Below are positions 7,571 through 17,892 of a stretch of DNA of 35,625 bases, one piece after another. The position numbers were made by a program, and so were the translations under genes. The stretch's first letter is position 1. Every line of letters starts with the position of its first letter. The notes beneath the pieces were generated by a model. It worked only from the letters and a program-made list of their open reading frames with translations. It was not told the DNA's origin and searched no databases. This DNA is from Candidatus Bipolaricaulota bacterium. Its GTDB lineage: Bacteria; Bipolaricaulota; Bipolaricaulia; RBG-16-55-9; DRXL01. The stretch spans positions 1 to 35,625 of the forward strand of contig JAUQPG010000015.1 of assembly GCA_030550495.1 (NCBI GenBank), written 5' to 3'.

Positions 7571-8227
7571 ATGAAGGTCCTGACAGCAAGAGCGGTCGTC
7601 TTTTTGCTCGTTCTGGTCTGCATCTGCGGATGGGGCCAGCTCGGCCAAAGCCAAGCCAAGCGTTTCTTAGTCGTCATTGACCCTGGGCACGGCGGCTGGG
7701 ACCCCGGCGCCATCGGCTACTACGGCACCCAAGAGAAAGATATTAATCTCAATATCGCGCGCTTTCTCCGACTCCTAGGGCTGTATGACGAGGAGATCTC
7801 TATCGTGCTAACGCGTTCGGAAGACGTCTACGTCCCGCACCGCGAGCGCACGGGCTTGGCCAATCGCCTCAAAGCCGATCTCTTCGTCTCCATTCACGCC
7901 AACGCCCACCCCAAAAGCCCCGCAGCCAACGGCATCGAAGTCTTAGTCCATGAGGATACGGACTTGCCCACCTATCCCCAAAGTCGTGCGCTCGCGCTGC
8001 TATTGCAAAAGCGGCTCACACGCGCCTTGGGCGTCACCGACCGAGGGATCAAACACCAACGGCTGTTTATTCGCTGGGCCCAGATGCCCGCGGTGCTCGT
8101 CGAGACCGGGTTTCTCACCAATCCCGCGGAAGAACTAAAGCTCCGGAGCTTCCTCTACCAATGGACCGTCGCCCAAATCCTCTTCGATACGATCAAAGAG
8201 TACCTACGCCACGCGAAAGCGCGCTGA
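7571..8227 (+). CDS. N-acetylmuramoyl-L-alanine amidase (Amidase_3, AmiC/CwlM type)
   Basis: 218 residues. A signal peptide or anchor (about 5-24, ARAVVFLLVLVCICGWG) precedes an Amidase_3 domain that fills the protein. Zinc ligands are His40 in IDPGHGG, Glu55 in QEKDINLN and His109 in SIHAN; the catalytic Glu178 lies in VLVETGFLTNP. It would cleave the bond between N-acetylmuramic acid and L-alanine in the periplasm. There is no SPOR, LysM or AMIN domain. The ATG at 7571 is chosen because the hydrophobic signal follows at once and an extended -10 box ends 7 bp before it; a longer frame from 7376 lacks both. The 3' end overlaps znuB on the other strand by 24 bp. Confidence 0.9.
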   Translation: MKVLTARAVVFLLVLVCICGWGQLGQSQAKRFLVVIDPGHGGWDPGAIGYYGTQEKDINLNIARFLRLLGLYDEEISIVLTRSEDVYVPHRERTGLANRLKADLFVSIHANAHPKSPAANGIEVLVHEDTDLPTYPQSRALALLLQKRLTRALGVTDRGIKHQRLFIRWAQMPAVLVETGFLTNPAEELKLRSFLYQWTVAQILFDTIKEYLRHAKAR

Positions 8228-9022
8228 CCGCCCGAGATTCACGAGCACAAAGAGCACTAAAGCCGCCAAGACGATCGTCGGCCCCGGCTGCGTATCCAGA
8301 TAGTACGAACCGATCAGTCCCCCGTAGACCGAAAGGAGACTGCTCCCAACGGCCAAAGAGAGCGCTTGGCGAAAACTCCGTGCCAGCTGGAGCGCTGCTG
8401 CTACCGGCAGGACCAGGAGCGCCGAGATCAGTAATAACCCTACAATCTGGATCGCTGAGACCACGGTGAGCGCCGCGAGCATGACTAACAAGATATTATA
8501 GGCTCCTACGCGAATTCCCGAAGCCCGCGCCGTCTCTTCATCAAAGGTGACAAAGAAGAGTTCGCGGCGCACGACGAAGAGCACCCCTAGGACGAGCGCG
8601 GCAATGAGCGCGAGCTGCAGAATATCACGGGGCTGGAGCATGATCACGCTGCCAAAGAGATAGTTCCATAACTGATCTGTGGACCGTCGCGCCAACCGCG
8701 CCAGCACCAACCCTAATGCCAACCCCGATGAGAGAAAGATCGCAATCGCGACATCGCCCCCCAGACGCCCCCTCACGCGCAACTGTTCGATCCCGAGGGC
8801 TGCTGCTACCGAGTACGCAATCGCCATCACGATCGGGTCAACCTTGACAAGCTGCCCAAATGCCACGCCCCCAAACGCAATGTGTCCCAATCCGTCCCCA
8901 ATAAGCCCATAGCGCCGCAGGACTAAAAAGATCCCAATTGTTGGGGCTAGTACCCCGATAATTGTGCCCCCAACAAACGCTAATCTCATGAATTCGAACT
9001 CGAAGATCTCAAACATACTCAT
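8204..9022 (-). CDS. znuB: Zinc-type (Mn/Zn/Fe) ABC importer permease ZnuB
   Basis: 272 residues in the ABC-3 permease family. The N-terminal region EFEFMRLAFVGGTIIGVLAPTIGIFLVLRRYGLIGDGLGHIAFGGVAFG is typical, and about eight membrane segments follow. The ATG at 9022 is chosen because it overlaps the znuC stop as ATGA; a GTG at 9028 and an ATG at 9016 are in frame. It forms the zinc channel with ZnuC as ATPase and ZnuA as receptor. It is the last gene of the zinc operon, and its tail overlaps the amidase gene, leaving no room for a terminator. Confidence 0.9.
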   Translation of the reverse strand: MSMFEIFEFEFMRLAFVGGTIIGVLAPTIGIFLVLRRYGLIGDGLGHIAFGGVAFGQLVKVDPIVMAIAYSVAAALGIEQLRVRGRLGGDVAIAIFLSSGLALGLVLARLARRSTDQLWNYLFGSVIMLQPRDILQLALIAALVLGVLFVVRRELFFVTFDEETARASGIRVGAYNILLVMLAALTVVSAIQIVGLLLISALLVLPVAAALQLARSFRQALSLAVGSSLLSVYGGLIGSYYLDTQPGPTIVLAALVLFVLVNLGRSARFRVA

Positions 9023-9771
9023 CCCCACGAATGCTGGTGCCGCACCAGCTTCTTCCCCGCATAGACTCTTTCCAAGAGATCACTGGCTAAGCACTCTTGC
9101 GGCGTCCCGCAGAAGAGCAGCTTTCTGTTCAGACACGCGATCTTCGTCACCTGCGTCACGATCGCTTCGATGTCGTGCGAGACCAGGACGATCGTCAAGC
9201 CCTGCTCGCGATTGAGCCTCCCCAAGAGCTCATAGAACTCGGCTTCGACCTTGGGGTCGACGGCCGCTGTGGGCTCATCAAGCAGGAGAATCTCCGGCTC
9301 TTGGGCCAAGACGCGCGCGAGAAAGACGCGCTGCTGCTGCCCACCCGATAGCTCGCTGATGGGTCGGGCGCGCAGCTCCGCCACGTGTACGGCGCGCATA
9401 GCCCTCTCAACGGCTTCGGTATCGGCGCGGCTCCAGCGCCCCCAGCGCAGGCGCGGCACCCGCCCCATCCGCACGATCTCCTCGACGGACGCCGGGAAAT
9501 TGCGTTCAAAATCCCAGCTGCGCTGGCGCACATAGCCAAGTCGCGCGCGCTCACGAAAGCGCCTCAGCTCCTGGCCGAAGAGCCGGATCGTCCCCTGCTG
9601 CAGAGGAAGGAGCCCAACGATGAGCTTCAGCAGCGTCGTCTTGCCGGAGCCGTTGGGGCCAATGAGCCCGAGGACATCCCCCCGCTCAACCCGCAGGGAG
9701 ATGCCCTCGAGCACCGGCTCAACGCCATAGCTGAACCAGAGATCTTCGACCTCAATGACAGGCTCGCTCAT
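9019..9771 (-). CDS. znuC: Zinc-type ABC importer ATPase ZnuC
   Basis: 250 residues. Walker A GPNGSGKT (38-45), signature LSGGQQQR (141-148), Walker B ILLLDEPTAAVDP (from 161) and a switch His in VLVSHDI. The sequence between Walker A and the signature (VRQRSWDFERNFPASVEEIVRMGR) is typical of the Zn/Mn importer ATPases. The ATG at 9771 overlaps the znuA stop as ATGA; a GTG at 9777 is the alternative. It energises ZnuB. Confidence 0.92.
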   Translation of the reverse strand: MSEPVIEVEDLWFSYGVEPVLEGISLRVERGDVLGLIGPNGSGKTTLLKLIVGLLPLQQGTIRLFGQELRRFRERARLGYVRQRSWDFERNFPASVEEIVRMGRVPRLRWGRWSRADTEAVERAMRAVHVAELRARPISELSGGQQQRVFLARVLAQEPEILLLDEPTAAVDPKVEAEFYELLGRLNREQGLTIVLVSHDIEAIVTQVTKIACLNRKLLFCGTPQECLASDLLERVYAGKKLVRHQHSWG

Positions 9772-10652
9772 GGGCACTCCAGCCCAATTCGTAGATTTTT
9801 CAGGTTCTCTTCCATGAGCACGAGATAGTTCTTGCCGGCACGCTCTTCTTCTTCGGTGACGCTGTGCCCGGTGTTGAGCGTCAGGATCTGCGCCCCGAGC
9901 TCGCGCGCTAGGACCTCCAACGCCCTGATCTCATCGCCCTCCTCGGTGAAGATATACTTGATGCCCTTCTCCTTGCCTAGGCGAATCAGCTCGACCAGGC
10001 GCTGGGGCGTCGGCTCAGCGGGCTCCAGCCCAGAGACTGAGTGCGCGACGAGATTATAGCGCGCCGCGAAGTAATCCATAAACCGATGCGAGACGATAAA
10101 GTCTCGTAAGCGACACGCCTTCAAGCCCTCACGGATCTTGGCATCCAGGGCGTCAAGCTGAGCGTGATACTTTTGGGCGTTTGCGGTATAGATCGATCTG
10201 CCGGTGCCGTCAGCCGTTGTCAAGCCATCCTGGATGTTGCTCACCATTCCCTTGGCGAGGATCGGGTCTATCCAGACGTGAGGGTCGAACTCGAACTCTT
10301 CTTCTTCGGCCTTGCGCACGGGCAGGCCCTTCGTCGCCTCGATGACGACGAGCGTATTGCGATTCTTGACGACAGCGAGCACGCGTTCGACCCACGATTC
10401 CATCGACGCCCCGTTATATACAAAGACCTGAGCTTCTTCAATCGCCCGAATATCCGCGGGGGAAGGCTCGAAATCGTGAGGCTCCGCGCCCGCTGGCACT
10501 AAATTCTTGACTTCAACGCGATCCCCGCCGACGTTCTTGGTGAACTCATAGGGGATATAGAAGCTCGCTACAACCTTGAGCTTTGGCTGCGCCACACCCG
10601 CTGTGGACGCACCAAGCACGAGAACTGTCACGATGAGCAACCATCTCTTCAT
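9768..10652 (-). CDS. znuA: Zinc-type ABC importer receptor ZnuA (cluster A-I)
   Basis: 294 residues with an N-terminal signal peptide (about 1-21). Metal ligands visible are His59 in AEPHDFEPSP, His125 in DPHVWIDP and His189 in VSHRFMDYF. An acidic loop, AEEEEFEFD (115-123), replaces the His-rich loop of many ZnuA proteins and lies just before the second ligand. ZnuA against MntA/PsaA is chosen from the adjacent zur gene. AAGGAGGAG at about 10660 precedes the ATG. The gene follows zur after 58 bp, in which a candidate Zur box overlaps a TTGAAT/TATTTT promoter. Confidence 0.88.
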   Translation of the reverse strand: MKRWLLIVTVLVLGASTAGVAQPKLKVVASFYIPYEFTKNVGGDRVEVKNLVPAGAEPHDFEPSPADIRAIEEAQVFVYNGASMESWVERVLAVVKNRNTLVVIEATKGLPVRKAEEEEFEFDPHVWIDPILAKGMVSNIQDGLTTADGTGRSIYTANAQKYHAQLDALDAKIREGLKACRLRDFIVSHRFMDYFAARYNLVAHSVSGLEPAEPTPQRLVELIRLGKEKGIKYIFTEEGDEIRALEVLARELGAQILTLNTGHSVTEEEERAGKNYLVLMEENLKNLRIGLECP

Positions 10653-10673
10653 GGTGATCTCCTCCTTTGTTAT

Positions 10674-10703
10674 TGAAAATAGATTTCATTTAGCGGGATT
10701 CAA
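10674..10703 (-). promoter_or_regulatory. znuA promoter with candidate Zur box
   Basis: TGAAAATAGATTTCA (10674-10688, plus strand) is a 7-1-7 near-palindrome with 6 of 7 arm pairs, the layout used by Fur-family proteins. It covers a possible -10, TATTTT (10681-10676), which lies 16 bp from TTGAAT (10703-10698) on the (-) strand. A matching box lies before zur. Confidence 0.6.
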
Positions 10704-10710
10704 AAATTTT

Positions 10711-11142
10711 TTATTGGCACTTTGGGCATTGGCCGACCACCTCCAGATGATGGGATTCGATGGCAAACCCCGTGCGCGCTTGGAGCTTGCGCAGTGTGCG
10801 GTCCAGAGCACAGTCTGGAAACTCTTCGACATGGCCGCAGGTGCGGCAGATCAACTGGTGATGATGCCCTTTCTCTAAACGCACTGCAGCAAAGCTATGA
10901 CAGCGCATCTTCCCCTGATGCACCCGTTGGACTAGGTTCAGCCTCTCTAGCAAGGCCAAGGTCCGATAGACCGTGACCAAGCCCAATTTACGGTATCGCC
11001 ACCGCGCCTGACGGTGGATCTCCTCCGGCGTCCTGTGCCCCGTCTCCGAAGCCATCGTCTCCAGCACAGCACGCCGTGCCTTGGTCAATCTATATCCCCT
11101 GGCTCTTAGGTGATCTTCCCAGATCTTTGCGAGAGTACTCAT
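10711..11142 (-). CDS. zur: Fur-family regulator, probably zinc-responsive Zur
   Basis: 143 residues. A winged helix (about 1-85, with the recognition region GLVTVYRTLALLERLNL) is followed by a dimerisation domain with KGHHHQLICRTCG. Two CxxC pairs, C99/C102 and C139/C142, form the structural zinc site of Zur and PerR-type proteins; the histidines at 93-95 belong to the regulatory metal site. The ATG at 11142 is preceded by AAGAAGG; an in-frame start at 11202 lies beyond the promoter and is rejected. Zur is chosen over Fur or PerR because the gene is followed directly by znuACB. A TGAAA-N5-TTTCA box over its own start site suggests autoregulation. Confidence 0.85.
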   Translation of the reverse strand: MSTLAKIWEDHLRARGYRLTKARRAVLETMASETGHRTPEEIHRQARWRYRKLGLVTVYRTLALLERLNLVQRVHQGKMRCHSFAAVRLEKGHHHQLICRTCGHVEEFPDCALDRTLRKLQARTGFAIESHHLEVVGQCPKCQ

Positions 11143-11156
11143 GCCTTCTTTCTTAC

Positions 11157-11171
11157 TGAAAAATCTTTTCA
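11157..11171 (-). promoter_or_regulatory. Candidate Zur box at the zur start site
   Basis: TGAAAAATCTTTTCA (plus strand) is a 7-1-7 near-palindrome. It shares the TGAAA-N5-TTTCA frame with the box before znuA and covers the predicted zur start site near 11167. Confidence 0.6.
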
Positions 11172-11173
11172 TT

Positions 11174-11202
11174 ATTATAATCGCCCGCCCTGGCGCTGTC
11201 AA
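11174..11202 (-). promoter_or_regulatory. zur promoter, perfect -35 and -10 consensus
   Basis: On the (-) strand TTGACA (11202-11197), a 17-bp spacer and TATAAT (11179-11174). Its -35 box lies 3 bp from the -35 box of the divergent AbrB-PhoU promoter. Confidence 0.85.
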
Positions 11203-11205
11203 GCC

Positions 11206-11234
11206 TTGACATCTATATAGCTATATATTACAAT
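11206..11234 (+). promoter_or_regulatory. Promoter of the AbrB-PhoU gene with CTATATAG element inside the spacer
   Basis: TTGACA (11206-11211), 17-bp spacer, TACAAT (11229-11234). The spacer holds CTATATAG (11213-11220) directly followed by CTATATAT (11221-11228), a doubled copy of the element found at pstS and pstC. A protein bound there would block RNA polymerase, which suggests negative autoregulation. Confidence 0.75.
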
Positions 11235-11264: not shown

Positions 11265-12254
11265 ATGGAGATCCGGAGAGTGCAGATCACTGGCGGGGCG
11301 ACCTTCATGGTCACTCTGCCCAAAGACTGGGCCGAAGCGCAAAAGCTCTATGCCGGTGCCGAGATCGAACTCCACCCCCATAGTCCCGATCTGCTGATTC
11401 TGCGCCCACACCGCGATTCCCACTTGACCCGCGGCGTCCTCAAGCTCAACGCCCAAACCGGCGATACCCTCATGCGCGCCTTCATCTCCATGTACGTCGC
11501 AGGATTTGACATCATTGAAGTCCAAGGGGAGCGCATCACCCCCGACCAGCGCCAGACGATCCGCAAGATTACCCAAGCCCTCATCGGCCCGGAGATCATG
11601 GAAGAATCACGAGACTCTATCGTCATTCATAATTTGCTCAATCTCTCTGAGCTCTCCGCCCCCAAAACGCTCCAACGCATCTTCTTGATGGTGCACGACA
11701 TGTTCACCGATGCCGTCCGCGCCCTCGTTGACCACGACGCTGAACTTGCCAACGATATCGCCGCGCGCGACGAGGACGTCGATCGCCTCTATTTGATGCT
11801 CTACAGGCAGTTCCGCATCGCACTGCGTGATCCCTTGGCCGAAGAGGCCTTGGGCATCAGCCGCGTCAAGCTCTTCGATACCCACACCGTGGCGCGGCAG
11901 CTAGAGCGTATCGCGGACCATGCGGTCAAGATTGCTTATGTGACTACGGTGATCAAAGTCCCTGCTCCCTCTAAGGTCGTCGATGCCCTGCATAAGGGCG
12001 GGGAACACGTGGCAAATTTGCTCCAAGAGTCTATGGATGCGTTCCGCTTGCCCGACCCAGATCTCGCCAGCCAGGTGATCGACAAGGCCTTAGGGGTGGA
12101 GGCACGCCTCATGAAGGCCGTCAAACTCTTGTGGGATCTTGCCCCGCAAGAAGCTCAGCTCATCGGCATTGCGTTTGATAGCATCGGGCGCGTGAAAGAC
12201 TATTCGATCAACATCGCCGAGACGGCCCTCAACACCGCCGTTCCTATGCCCTAG
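11265..12254 (+). CDS. AbrB-PhoU fusion, putative DNA-binding phosphate uptake regulator
   Basis: 329 residues. The N-terminus (about 1-48: RRVQITGG near the start, TLPKDW, then a Gly-Ala-Glu-Ile turn and LLILRP) is a SpoVT-AbrB swapped-hairpin DNA-binding domain. A linker region (50-125) is followed by two PhoU helical bundles with the metal-site motifs ARDEDVD (167-173) plus RQLERIADHAVKIA (211-224), and FDSIGRVKDYSINIAE (304-319). This architecture is best known from archaeal 'phosphate uptake regulators'. GGGAGGG at about 11255-11261 precedes the ATG. PhoU proteins sense the state of the Pst transporter; the AbrB domain would let this one act on DNA directly. Its doubled CTATATA element and the same element before pstS, pstC and phnD make it the best candidate for the binding protein. 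A separate plain PhoU is encoded at 18732. Confidence 0.85.
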   Translation: MEIRRVQITGGATFMVTLPKDWAEAQKLYAGAEIELHPHSPDLLILRPHRDSHLTRGVLKLNAQTGDTLMRAFISMYVAGFDIIEVQGERITPDQRQTIRKITQALIGPEIMEESRDSIVIHNLLNLSELSAPKTLQRIFLMVHDMFTDAVRALVDHDAELANDIAARDEDVDRLYLMLYRQFRIALRDPLAEEALGISRVKLFDTHTVARQLERIADHAVKIAYVTTVIKVPAPSKVVDALHKGGEHVANLLQESMDAFRLPDPDLASQVIDKALGVEARLMKAVKLLWDLAPQEAQLIGIAFDSIGRVKDYSINIAETALNTAVPMP

Positions 12255-14158: not shown

Positions 14159-14187
14159 TTGACAAACCTTCCCCGGATCTGTATACT
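14159..14187 (+). promoter_or_regulatory. pstS promoter
   Basis: TTGACA (14159-14164), 17-bp spacer, TATACT (14182-14187). The predicted start is near 14194, two bases before the palindromic CTATATAG element. Confidence 0.82.
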
Positions 14188-14195
14188 TATGGTGC

Positions 14196-14209
14196 GATCT
14201 ATATAGATC
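14196..14209. promoter_or_regulatory. Perfect 14-bp palindrome with CTATATAG core at the pstS start site
   Basis: GATCTATATAGATC is a perfect palindrome at about +2 to +15 of the predicted pstS transcript. The core recurs before the AbrB-PhoU gene and pstC, and as a variant before phnD. Position and symmetry suit an operator for a dimeric repressor. Confidence 0.65.
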
Positions 14210-14240: not shown

Positions 14241-15389
14241 ATGAATTTTAGTGCGTCTCTTCTAAGACGCGTCGCGTTCGTCGCTCTGCTGGCCGTCGGG
14301 TCGGTCGTCTTGTCGTCGTTCGCTCAACCAGGGGCTCCGAAGGACTCTAAGAATATCTTGGCAGACGGCTCCAGCACCGTCGCCCCTATCACCAAGGCGA
14401 TGGCTGAGGAGTTTAAGAAGGTCCGCCCTGACGTCAACGTGACCGTCGCGGTGAGCGGCACCTCTGGAGGCTTTCGGCGCTTCGTCACCGGCGAGACCGA
14501 CATCAGCAACGCCTCGCGCGCTATCAAACAATCCGAGATCGAGGCCGCGCCCAAAAACGGCGTCGAATATATTGAGCTATTAATCGCCCTGGACGGCCTG
14601 ACCGTCGCCGTCAGTAATAAGACCCAGATCTTCGGCACTGCGCCAGTATGCTTGACCGTCGGGGAGCTAGAGCTGCTGTGGGCTAAAGAAGCCGAAAAAT
14701 TCATCACGAAGTGGAATCAAGTCCGCAGCACCTTCCCCAATGCCAATATCACGCTCTCCGGTGCGGCCGAAACTTCGGGGACATTTGACTTCTTCACGTC
14801 AGCGATCAATGGGAAAGAGGGCGACTCCCGACAAGATTATTTCGGCACCGAGGAAGATCAGCTCTTAGCGCAACAGACGGGCGCCGATCCCTTCGCACTG
14901 ACGTACTTTGGGTATAACTTCTTCGTGCATAATACGCAATTCGTGCAGGCCGTCGCGATTGACCCGCGCCGCGAGCTGATCAGCGCCCCTGAAGACGTGC
15001 TGAAAGAGATCAACGCGCGGCGTGCCAAGAGCGGCAAGAAGCCCTTGGAGAACAAGGGCGGCGAATGCAAGGGCATCCTGCCCACTGTCGATACGATCTT
15101 GGGGTTCGTCTATCAGCCCTTGAGCCGCCCGCTTTTTATCTACGTCAATAAGAAGAGCGGCGAGCGCCCCGCCGTTGAAGAGTTCATCAACTTCTATCTC
15201 GACGAGAGCCGCCTAGGCAATCAGCAGTTTATGCTCAATAAAGCTGGGTATCTGCCCGCTCCCCGCGAGGTGCGCGAAGAAGCGCGCACTTGTTGGAAGA
15301 AGCGCATCACCGGCACGGCTTTCGGCGGCAACTACTCCGGGCTGTCGCTCCAAGATATCCGCAAGAAGTACGGCGAACACTGCAAGTGA
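14241..15389 (+). CDS. pstS: Phosphate ABC importer receptor PstS
   Basis: 382 residues with a signal peptide (about 1-28). Phosphate-binding motifs are DGSSTVAP (42-49), SGTSGGFRRF (72-81) and SRAI (92-95), plus AAETSGTFDFF further on. The ending KKYGEHCK and the insertion PLENKGGECKG add a few Cys residues that could form disulphides in the periplasm. GAGGAGG (about 14228-14234) precedes the ATG. It is transcribed from its own promoter carrying the palindromic CTATATAG element, and is separated from pstC by a strong stem-loop and a second promoter, so it is probably made in excess over the membrane subunits. Confidence 0.95.
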   Translation: MNFSASLLRRVAFVALLAVGSVVLSSFAQPGAPKDSKNILADGSSTVAPITKAMAEEFKKVRPDVNVTVAVSGTSGGFRRFVTGETDISNASRAIKQSEIEAAPKNGVEYIELLIALDGLTVAVSNKTQIFGTAPVCLTVGELELLWAKEAEKFITKWNQVRSTFPNANITLSGAAETSGTFDFFTSAINGKEGDSRQDYFGTEEDQLLAQQTGADPFALTYFGYNFFVHNTQFVQAVAIDPRRELISAPEDVLKEINARRAKSGKKPLENKGGECKGILPTVDTILGFVYQPLSRPLFIYVNKKSGERPAVEEFINFYLDESRLGNQQFMLNKAGYLPAPREVREEARTCWKKRITGTAFGGNYSGLSLQDIRKKYGEHCK

Positions 15390-15403
15390 GCCAGCCCCTC
15401 CCA

Positions 15404-15442
15404 CCGAGCCTCTCAGGGGAACCCCGACCCTGGGAGGCTCGG
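15404..15442 (+). terminator. Strong intercistronic stem-loop after pstS
   Basis: CCGAGCCTCTCAGGG (15404-15418) pairs with CCCTGGGAGGCTCGG (15428-15442): 15 pairs with one wobble and a 9-nt loop. No T-run follows. As in the phnD-phnC gap, a GC-rich hairpin closes the receptor gene; it may protect the pstS mRNA 3' end or partly terminate. Confidence 0.7.
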
Positions 15443-15461
15443 GGCCCCTCCCTGGACTCAT

Positions 15462-15491
15462 TTGACTTCCCGTGCCCCATGGTGCTATAAT
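15462..15491 (+). promoter_or_regulatory. pstC promoter
   Basis: TTGACT (15462-15467), 18-bp spacer, TATAAT (15486-15491). The predicted start is near 15498, giving the pstCAB-phoU-arsC unit its own transcript. Confidence 0.75.
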
Positions 15492-15504
15492 TTCATGCGA
15501 AAAA

Positions 15505-15517
15505 CTATATAGAAATG
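15505..15517 (+). promoter_or_regulatory. CTATATAG element in the pstC leader
   Basis: CTATATAG (15505-15512) followed by AAATG, at about +7 to +15 of the predicted transcript. The string TATATAGAAATG is shared exactly with the phnD leader on the other strand. Confidence 0.6.
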
Positions 15518-16453
15518 ATTAGAACCATGAAGAAGTCGACGGCATCCCAGCCCGCCTTACACGCCCCCCCGGGACGGTATCTCAAGGAACGGCTCATTCA
15601 AGGTGTGCTCTTCGCCTGTGCGTTTCTCGCCGTTGTCGTCACGGCAATCACTATTTGGATCTTTCTCTCTGGCTCCGGAATCTTCTTTGCTAAAGTCTCG
15701 CTGTGGGAGTTTTTGGGAGGTACACGCTGGGCACCAACTGATATCTCGACCCCATCCTACGGCGCTTTGCCCTTAATCATGGGCACGTTGATCATCACCG
15801 GGATCGCTCTCTTGGTCGCCCTGCCCATCGGGCTGCTCAGCGCGATCTATCTGAGTGAATTTGCGTCGGAGCGCGTGCGCAAGATAGCGAAACCCATCTT
15901 GGAGATTCTCGCAGGGATTCCCACGGTCGTCTACGGGTATTTCGCGCTGCTCTTTGTGACGCCGCTGTTGCGCTCGGTGCTCCCCGATATTCAGTTCTGG
16001 AACGCGCTCAGCGCGGGGATTGTCTTGGGGATCGCGATCATCCCCTTGGTCTCGTCGTTGAGTGAGGATGTGATCTACGCGGTGCCTCGGTCGTTGCGCG
16101 AGGGCGCCTATGCCCTCGGAGCGACGCAATACGAGACGATCCGTCACGTGGTGCTGCCCGCGGCGCTGTCGGGCATCGCTGCAGCGTTCATCTTAGCCAT
16201 GTCGCGGGCCATCGGCGAGACGATGATCGTCGCTATTGCCGCTGGGCGCGTGCCGACCTGGCCCCCAGATCTGCTCAAGCCCTTAGAGACTCTCACCGTG
16301 CACATCGTCAACGTCGCCACAGGAGACGCTGAAGCCGGTGCGTTCATCTGGGCCACGATCTTCGCCATCGGCGCGCTGCTCTTCGCGATCACCCTGCTCT
16401 TAAATATTCTCAGTTATTGGATCGTGCGTCGCTTCCGGGAGCAATACGAATGA
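15515..16453 (+). CDS. pstC: Phosphate ABC importer permease PstC
   Basis: 312 residues, normal length. Six membrane segments, starting at about 28-52; the EAA loop reads EGAYALGATQYETIRHVVLPAALSGI, and SRAIGETMIVAIAAG follows, both typical of PstC. Two in-frame starts exist, ATG 15515 and ATG 15527, neither with a good ribosome site; the first lies within the CTATATAG element region and only about 17 nt from the predicted start site. The stop overlaps the pstA start as ATGA. It forms the channel with PstA. Confidence 0.92.
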   Translation: MIRTMKKSTASQPALHAPPGRYLKERLIQGVLFACAFLAVVVTAITIWIFLSGSGIFFAKVSLWEFLGGTRWAPTDISTPSYGALPLIMGTLIITGIALLVALPIGLLSAIYLSEFASERVRKIAKPILEILAGIPTVVYGYFALLFVTPLLRSVLPDIQFWNALSAGIVLGIAIIPLVSSLSEDVIYAVPRSLREGAYALGATQYETIRHVVLPAALSGIAAAFILAMSRAIGETMIVAIAAGRVPTWPPDLLKPLETLTVHIVNVATGDAEAGAFIWATIFAIGALLFAITLLLNILSYWIVRRFREQYE

Positions 16454-17892
16454 GCGCTCAGACTCTCCACATAGAACGACGTCAATTAGTGTGGCGTAAG
16501 ACGAAGAGCACGTTTTTCGGCTCGATCACTTTTAGCACGATCCTCATCAGCCTAGCCCTGTTGGTCGCCCTGATCGTCTATATTCTCATCAATGCGCGCC
16601 CGCTGATGGCGATGCGCGCGGCTTCTCGAGCGGGCTTAGTGCTCTCAACGATGGTCATCCAATGGGATGCCAAGAACCTTCCCTATGTCATCATCACGGA
16701 TTTTATCCCCGAGAGCGCCGCGGCCCGTGCAGGCATTAGCGAATTCGATGCGATCATTCACATTGGCCCTGAGAGCGTCTACCGCTCGGCGCAGGTCTGG
16801 GAGGCTATAGCAAGATTGCCCAGCGATGCACTGCCCATCGGCTGGATCTCCGGTGATCCCTCAAAAATATTCGGCGATCTTCTTCCCCAGATGGACCCGC
16901 AGACGGGCGCGCTGCGCGTCGTCATAGACTATCTGCCTGAAGAGAGTCTTGGTTTTCAAGCTGGGCTGCGCCCCGGCGATATTGTAACGCACATCGAAGA
17001 TATCCCCGTTACAGGGGCGCGCCAAGCGTGGGAAGCGCTCATCGTCGCCGCGCAGAGAAGAGCGCAGCCTGGCCCGCTCACAGTGCAGATCGAGCGCGAC
17101 GGGGAGCTTTTCACTATCGCGCTTCCTGCAGAGCAGACAGCACAAATCCCCATCCAGCGCAGTTGGTGGCGCGCCATCTGGGACTTCCTGACGAGCTATG
17201 ACTCCAATTCCCCAGAGAAAGCTGGCCTAGCGAGCGCCATCGTCGGCTCGCTCTATTTAGTCGGCCTGACGGCGCTCTTCGCGCTGCCTTTGGGAGTTGG
17301 CGCCGCTATATACTTAGAAGAGTACGCTCGAAGAAATTGGCTCACCGAGCTGATTCAGCTCTTGATCGCCAATCTTGCCGGAGTCCCCTCCGTCATTTAC
17401 GGGATTATCGGGTTAGAGATCTTGGCGCGGGCGCTCAAGATGGACCGCGTGCTCATTACGGGATCACTGACGATGACGCTCTTGATCTTGCCCATGGTGA
17501 TCATTGCTGCTCGCGAAGCGCTGCGCACTATTCCCGATTCGATCCGACACGCTGCTTATGCTGTGGGGGCGACGCGCTGGCAGGTGGTGCGCTCCCACGT
17601 GCTGCCCTATGCCCTGCCGGGGATCTTGACGGGCTTGATCATCTCGCTTTCGCGGGCGATGGGCGAGGCAGCCTTGCTTATCTTACTGGGGGCCTTTCAG
17701 TATCTGACGTTTCTGCCCACCTTGGGCAGCTACTTCACAGTCGTTCCCATTCAGATTTTTACGTGGATCGGAGAAGCAAAGGATGGCTTTGCTAACATTG
17801 CTGCCGCAGCAATCATAGTGCTCCTGACGATCCTCTTAGCGATGAACGCCCTCGCGATCTTCTTGCGCATGAAATTCCAGAGGAGGTGGTAG
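16450..17892 (+). CDS. pstA: Phosphate ABC importer permease PstA with a large PDZ-like insertion
   Basis: 480 residues against about 280-300 for usual PstA. After the first helix (about 25-48) a stretch of about 190 residues intervenes before the permease core. Within it, residues about 78-130 (DFIPESAAARAGISEFDAII) and 157-228 (DYLPEESLGFQAGLRPGDIV, then IERDGELFTIALPA) both have the PDZ pattern: S-A/G-A-x-x-A-G-[IL]-x-x-x-D-x-I. The core then follows from about 258, with the EAA loop RHAAYAVGATRWQVVRSHVLPYALPGI (366-392) and SRAMGEAALLILLGA. By topology the insert lies outside the cytoplasmic membrane. The ATG at 16450 overlaps pstC. The permease identity is firm; the PDZ reading is strong by motif; its role (docking PstS, proteolysis control or sensing) is speculation. 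Confidence 0.88.
   Translation: MSAQTLHIERRQLVWRKTKSTFFGSITFSTILISLALLVALIVYILINARPLMAMRAASRAGLVLSTMVIQWDAKNLPYVIITDFIPESAAARAGISEFDAIIHIGPESVYRSAQVWEAIARLPSDALPIGWISGDPSKIFGDLLPQMDPQTGALRVVIDYLPEESLGFQAGLRPGDIVTHIEDIPVTGARQAWEALIVAAQRRAQPGPLTVQIERDGELFTIALPAEQTAQIPIQRSWWRAIWDFLTSYDSNSPEKAGLASAIVGSLYLVGLTALFALPLGVGAAIYLEEYARRNWLTELIQLLIANLAGVPSVIYGIIGLEILARALKMDRVLITGSLTMTLLILPMVIIAAREALRTIPDSIRHAAYAVGATRWQVVRSHVLPYALPGILTGLIISLSRAMGEAALLILLGAFQYLTFLPTLGSYFTVVPIQIFTWIGEAKDGFANIAAAAIIVLLTILLAMNALAIFLRMKFQRRW

Follow-up and report, generated by a model that had tools for sequence, protein, structure and literature searches.

The region between zur and abrB-phoU can, with moderate confidence, be read as two independently autoregulated promoters on a common short spacer, whose competition for RNA polymerase is incidental, and CTATATAG as the operator of AbrB-PhoU. 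The window, that is, the whole stretch of 35,625 nucleotides that we analyzed, comes from a metagenome-assembled genome of 1.63 Mb (G000) that its nearest relatives assign to the Bipolaricaulota (Acetothermia), and all genome-wide counts of words and boxes given below are the result of pattern searches. We regard CTATATAG, as a testable candidate operator of AbrB-PhoU, as the most useful outcome of the analysis, above the promoter pair itself.

Layout of the zur and abrB-phoU promoters

On the left side of the locus lie zur and a znuABC-type transporter, and on the right side the AbrB-PhoU fusion, a metallo-beta-lactamase-fold protein, a HAD hydrolase, pstS, pstC, pstA, pstB and a second PhoU. 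The genes and promoters around the shared spacer are as follows.

8204–10652, minus strand: znuA-znuC-znuB-type zinc/manganese ABC transporter, downstream of zur
10711–11142, minus strand: zur, Fur-family metalloregulator of 143 aa (Pfam FUR, 3.7e-27)
11202–11174, minus strand: zur promoter TTGACA-17-TATAAT, 12/12 consensus (-35 at 11202–11197, -10 at 11179–11174)
11206–11234, plus strand: abrB-phoU promoter TTGACA-17-TACAAT, 11/12 consensus (-35 at 11206–11211, -10 at 11229–11234)
11265–12254, plus strand: abrB-phoU, with an N-terminal AbrB/MazE-type DNA-binding domain and a PhoU domain

The two promoters are the top two promoter-like sites in 4 kb, while about 0.0016 exact consensus promoters would be expected by base composition in the whole window. 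They are divergent, with -35 boxes separated by 3 bp, just as an earlier note on this DNA had described them, and that note was also right about the positions of the Zur-type box and of the CTATATA elements. It had further seen a palindrome, TGTCAAGCCTTGACA, at 11197–11211. The sequence is there (TGTCAAG-C-CTTGACA), and it consists of nothing but the two opposed -35 hexamers and a single flanking base pair. As an operator of its own, the palindrome was rejected: relatives keep only the -35 hexamers, with a middle that differs in length and sequence, and the identical 15-mer is also present in G002, where the genes on either side are unrelated.

Start sites were predicted 7 bp past the -10, which places those of zur and abrB-phoU 74 bp apart. 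Taking a polymerase footprint of -55 to +20, the E. coli values, the predicted footprints at the two promoters overlap by about 37 bp, so that occupation of both at once is unlikely; since the -35 boxes are only 3 bp apart, polymerase would probably sit on one promoter at a time. The two promoters are thus predicted to exclude each other's polymerase, likely by steric hindrance. The view of the earlier note that polymerase can hardly occupy both is therefore physically likely, and it has a precedent in E. coli (PMC12825309).

In E. coli, competition for polymerase has been measured at bidirectional promoters, where it appears only with one direction strongly active; these promoters share a -10 and have start sites about 10–23 bp apart (PMC12825309). 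As at acrR/acrA and soxR/soxS of E. coli, the opposed promoters studied here are too near for joint polymerase binding, and one of the two sides can be the target of a regulator (PMC12825309). In contrast to the E. coli bidirectional promoters, however, it is the -35 boxes that abut, the -10 boxes are separate, the predicted starts are farther apart and both promoters are near consensus, so that the pair falls outside the definition of a bidirectional promoter by a shared -10 and closely spaced starts (PMC12825309).

A second back-to-back promoter pair, TGTCAAGCCCCGCTTGACA, was found in the source genome between genes for tRNA-Gln and a yicC-type protein (L183, G000:C58:23351-23369), and it is kept in G004. 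Moreover, opposed -35 boxes at most 10 bp apart number 37 in 21 genomes, versus 11 for a reversed control pattern. Because the back-to-back layout recurs at tRNA-Gln/yicC and is commoner than the control, it is not special to zinc or phosphate genes. The zur/abrB-phoU promoter pair is a pair of ordinary close divergent promoters.

The zur half and its box

The product of zur is the sole Fur-family protein found in the G000 genome. It has the Fur-family fold according to its Pfam match, and its PDB relatives include FurB/Zur of M. tuberculosis (2o03). An alignment shows that the structural CxxC...CxxC zinc site is present, with CRTC and CPKC conserved, and that the GCHS and GHHH motifs are conserved too, at a spacing unlike that of M. 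tuberculosis FurB. The protein scores under the NCBIfam Zur cut-off, and its metal ligands do not decide the matter; its assignment as a putative Zur relies on the gene neighbourhood and on a box that fits a published Zur consensus (PMC2823685). Two boxes of this type lie at the locus.

11153–11175, unstranded: Zur-type box TTACTGAAAAATCTTTTCATTAT at the zur promoter, about +14 to -8 of zur
10670–10692, unstranded: Zur-type box TTATTGAAAATAGATTTCATTTA before znuA, with at most 2 mismatches

The first of these has as its core the 15-mer (11157–11171) that the earlier note had picked out. Allowing up to 2 mismatches, the box occurs at two places in the whole G000 genome, zur and znuA, and the two flanking positions are shared by G005, G006 and G008. 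A wider Zur regulon was accordingly rejected, the genome search having given zur and znuA only. The box fits the published Zur consensus of S. coelicolor, TGAAAATGATTTTCA (PMC2823685), which its core TGAAAAnnnTTTTCA resembles. The placing of a Fur-family regulator beside a ZnuABC-type transporter is likewise that of the actinobacterial Zur/FurB regulon (S. coelicolor, M. tuberculosis and C. glutamicum; PMC2823685), whereas G000 belongs to another phylum, its regulon apparently consists of zur and znu only, and its metal-ligand spacing is unlike that of FurB. The transporter matches Pfam ZnuA (9.9e-77), ABC_tran and ABC-3; every NCBIfam match is below cut-off, so that NCBIfam does not fix the metal, and the substrate could be manganese instead of zinc.

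Relative to zur the box extends over +14 to -8, whereas relative to abrB-phoU it sits at -66 to -88, so that predicted Zur binding would directly block zur alone. Zinc-loaded Zur on 11153–11175 would lie over the zur start and -10 and turn zur off, and the box of the same type before znuA would place uptake under the control of Zur.

AbrB-PhoU and the CTATATAG element

AbrB-PhoU is a fusion and no standard PhoU. Its residues 8–51 match the AbrB/MazE-type domain (PF04014, 5e-07, 30 bits versus a cut-off of 24.7), a match that reaches 47 bits in the homologue of G008, and its PhoU domain matches PF01895 (1.6e-23). In the predicted model, the C-terminal helices have PhoU structures as their best structural matches (4q25 and 1t72), while the full-length PhoU model TIGR02135 gave 80.7 bits versus a cut-off of 130. 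AbrB-type domains fold as swapped dimers, and the low confidence of residues 1–50 in the monomer model, in which the AbrB domain is not resolved, is therefore expected. AbrB-PhoU proteins of archaea (Methanoregula and Methanolinea, L067–L070) have the same domain layout and are 31–33% identical over the full length. Standard PhoU has no DNA-binding domain and acts through the PhoR kinase. AbrB-PhoU resembles the PhoU of Pst/PhoR-PhoB systems (4q25, 1t72) in its PhoU domain and in its clustering with pstSCAB and a separate PhoU, whereas the AbrB/MazE-type domain at its N-terminus makes it a likely direct binder of DNA. The element to which it might bind recurs at three promoters of the phosphate region.

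11213–11227, unstranded: CTATATAG in CTATATAGCTATATA, inside the spacer of the abrB-phoU promoter
14159–14187, plus strand: pstS promoter TTGACA-17-TATACT, read from the sequence and kept in G004, G005 and G007
14199–14206, unstranded: CTATATAG just past the predicted pstS start, with palindrome GATCTATATAGATC at 14196–14209
15505–15512, unstranded: CTATATAG just past the predicted pstC promoter (TTGACT at 15462–15467, 18 bp, TATAAT at 15486–15491)

At abrB-phoU, CTATATAG lies between the -35 and the -10, in an element with the 14-bp palindrome TATATAGCTATATA (11214–11227). Relative to abrB-phoU, CTATATAG and its repeat are at -13 to -28, and relative to zur at -46 to -61; a protein bound there would thus be predicted to block abrB-phoU directly. 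In G000, G004 and G005, CTATATAG is the sole 8-mer common to the upstream regions of abrB-phoU, pstS and pstC. The pstS copy is found at the same position in G004, G005 and G007 and is degenerate in G008, and the pstC copy is found at the same position in G002, G003, G004, G005 and G007. The G000 genome has 21 copies, three of which fall between the abrB-phoU promoter and pstC, a stretch of 4.4 kb (P about 2.5e-5 if copies were uniformly distributed); most of the others are inside open reading frames. That the element stands both at the abrB-phoU promoter and at pst leads us to infer binding by AbrB-PhoU, whose operator CTATATAG probably is. Its placement, in the spacer at abrB-phoU and past the start at pstS and pstC, suits a repressor.

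CTATATAG also stands directly before abrB-phoU in G010 and G014, which belong to another family, and in G053, a class member of yet another family; the genomes of G010 and G053 contain no more than three copies each. Many class-level relatives of abrB-phoU are without it upstream. In another family of the class (L012, L013, L015, L016 and L017), a conserved element of about GTATATTRGTATAATTYTTCTATATTGATATACAT is found upstream of abrB-phoU, perhaps that clade's form of the operator. The archaeal upstream regions (L067–L070) have no CTATATAG; the half-sites CTATA/TATAG are mildly enriched there (12 versus 3.6 expected), which is only suggestive because the control word GTATA/TATAC is found 9 times versus 3.9 expected.

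The idea that CTATATAG is exclusive to phosphate genes was rejected, as three other intergenic copies are conserved, being kept between G000 and G005 before two genes for Hdr-like Fe-S proteins and a gene for a CooC-like ATPase (L113, L122 and L124, position 1501 in each). Given these copies, CTATATAG may belong to a broader regulator. It could be the site of another protein, either a stand-alone AbrB-type or a global energy/starvation regulator, over abrB-phoU, pst and Wood-Ljungdahl-type genes, with AbrB-PhoU acting elsewhere or by protein contacts. G000 does hold three further AbrB-domain matches and six matches to OmpR/PhoB-type regulators, any of which could bind the element or control pst. 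However, cross-family conservation of CTATATAG is best precisely at abrB-phoU, and three copies are clustered in the pho region, which makes another regulator an unlikely, if still credible, owner of the site. The Hdr-like and CooC-like copies hint, as a separate observation, at a regulator spanning phosphate uptake and acetyl-CoA-pathway genes.

Proposed circuits and polymerase competition

With AbrB-PhoU as the protein that acts at CTATATAG, plentiful phosphate would lead it to bind in its own promoter spacer and past the pstS and pstC starts, and all three would be repressed. AbrB-PhoU may be a one-component phosphate repressor that reads phosphate status and, with no need of PhoR-PhoB, controls its own gene, pstS and pstC through CTATATAG. 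For Bipolaricaulota, and possibly for the archaea that bear the fusion, this is a tentative proposal with a substantial chance of being right. If true, a PhoU with a DNA-binding domain of its own and a conserved candidate operator to go with it would constitute a simpler phosphate circuit, and a function would be suggested for a fusion of Bipolaricaulota and methanogens on which a search of open-access papers gave no specific study.

The conservation of the locus bears on whether the two circuits are tied to each other. Most genus relatives keep all the elements apart from their exact spacing. The divergent gene pair is kept in G005 (L062), G001 (L063), G004 (L065) and G008 (L071), in agreement with the conservation that the earlier note had proposed as a check, while the palindrome included in the same check is reduced to the -35 hexamers. 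The zur promoter is conserved in these four genomes and the abrB-phoU promoter in five relatives. The gap between the -35 boxes is 3 bp in G000 and G004, 4 bp in G005, 5 bp in G001 and 22 bp in G008. In G004, the Zur box has decayed at the zur promoter and is retained before znuA; in G002 (L064), on a contig that begins about 200 bp upstream, the abrB-phoU promoter is intact without an adjoining zur; and more distant relatives have abrB-phoU without a neighbouring zur. This variable gap, the decayed box and the absence of zur beside abrB-phoU elsewhere indicate that the two halves evolve separately.

The earlier note had proposed that either regulator could shift polymerase to the opposite promoter and so couple zinc and phosphate control. 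A selected switch of this kind, with Zur sending polymerase to abrB-phoU according to zinc status and phosphate status sending it to zur, is in our estimate improbable. It would account for the 37-bp footprint overlap between promoters near consensus, and for the retention of the gene pair with gaps of 3–5 bp in 4/4 genus members in which both promoters are seen, a close packing that may reflect selected coupling inside the genus; competition is also known from bidirectional promoters of E. coli (PMC12825309). Its strongest remaining argument is that near-consensus promoters might reach the activity at which competition appears. Against it, the gap widens in G008, the Zur box has decayed at zur in G004, abrB-phoU stands without an adjoining zur in G002, and the same layout serves the unrelated tRNA-Gln/yicC pair. 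Moreover, G000 has no cross-placed operators, neither a Zur box at pst nor CTATATAG at znu, and in E. coli the loss of one direction gave the other no substantial gain at basal activity (PMC12825309). Each operator marks its own regulon and lies outside the -35/-10 core of the other promoter, which leaves both the shift of polymerase by the regulators and the zinc-phosphate coupling unsupported.

With two independently autoregulated promoters, relief or repression of one would have a modest effect on the other through competition for polymerase, and cross-effects between the zinc and phosphate sides would arise mainly in this way. Such competition is plausible but incidental, a by-product of the short spacer instead of a conserved zinc-phosphate switch. 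Finally, it is very improbable that CTATATAG is mere AT-rich promoter sequence with no dedicated regulator: the 8-mer is AT-rich and the reversed word is nearly as frequent in the G000 genome (15 versus 21 copies), but CTATATAG is exact at three promoters across species despite diverged flanks, and shuffling of the three G000 regions gave any shared 8-mer in only 14/5000 trials.

Two further observations concern the pst genes. In the interval between pstS and pstC (15389–15515), the separate promoter and CTATATAG are preceded by an inverted repeat rich in G+C, GAGCCTCTCAGGGG...CCCTGGGAGGCTCGG, an arrangement that is kept in several relatives and in which the repeat looks like a terminator or attenuator, combined with an internal promoter. 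In addition, PstA (16417–17892) has a PDZ domain match in an N-terminal extension, which is unusual for a phosphate permease.
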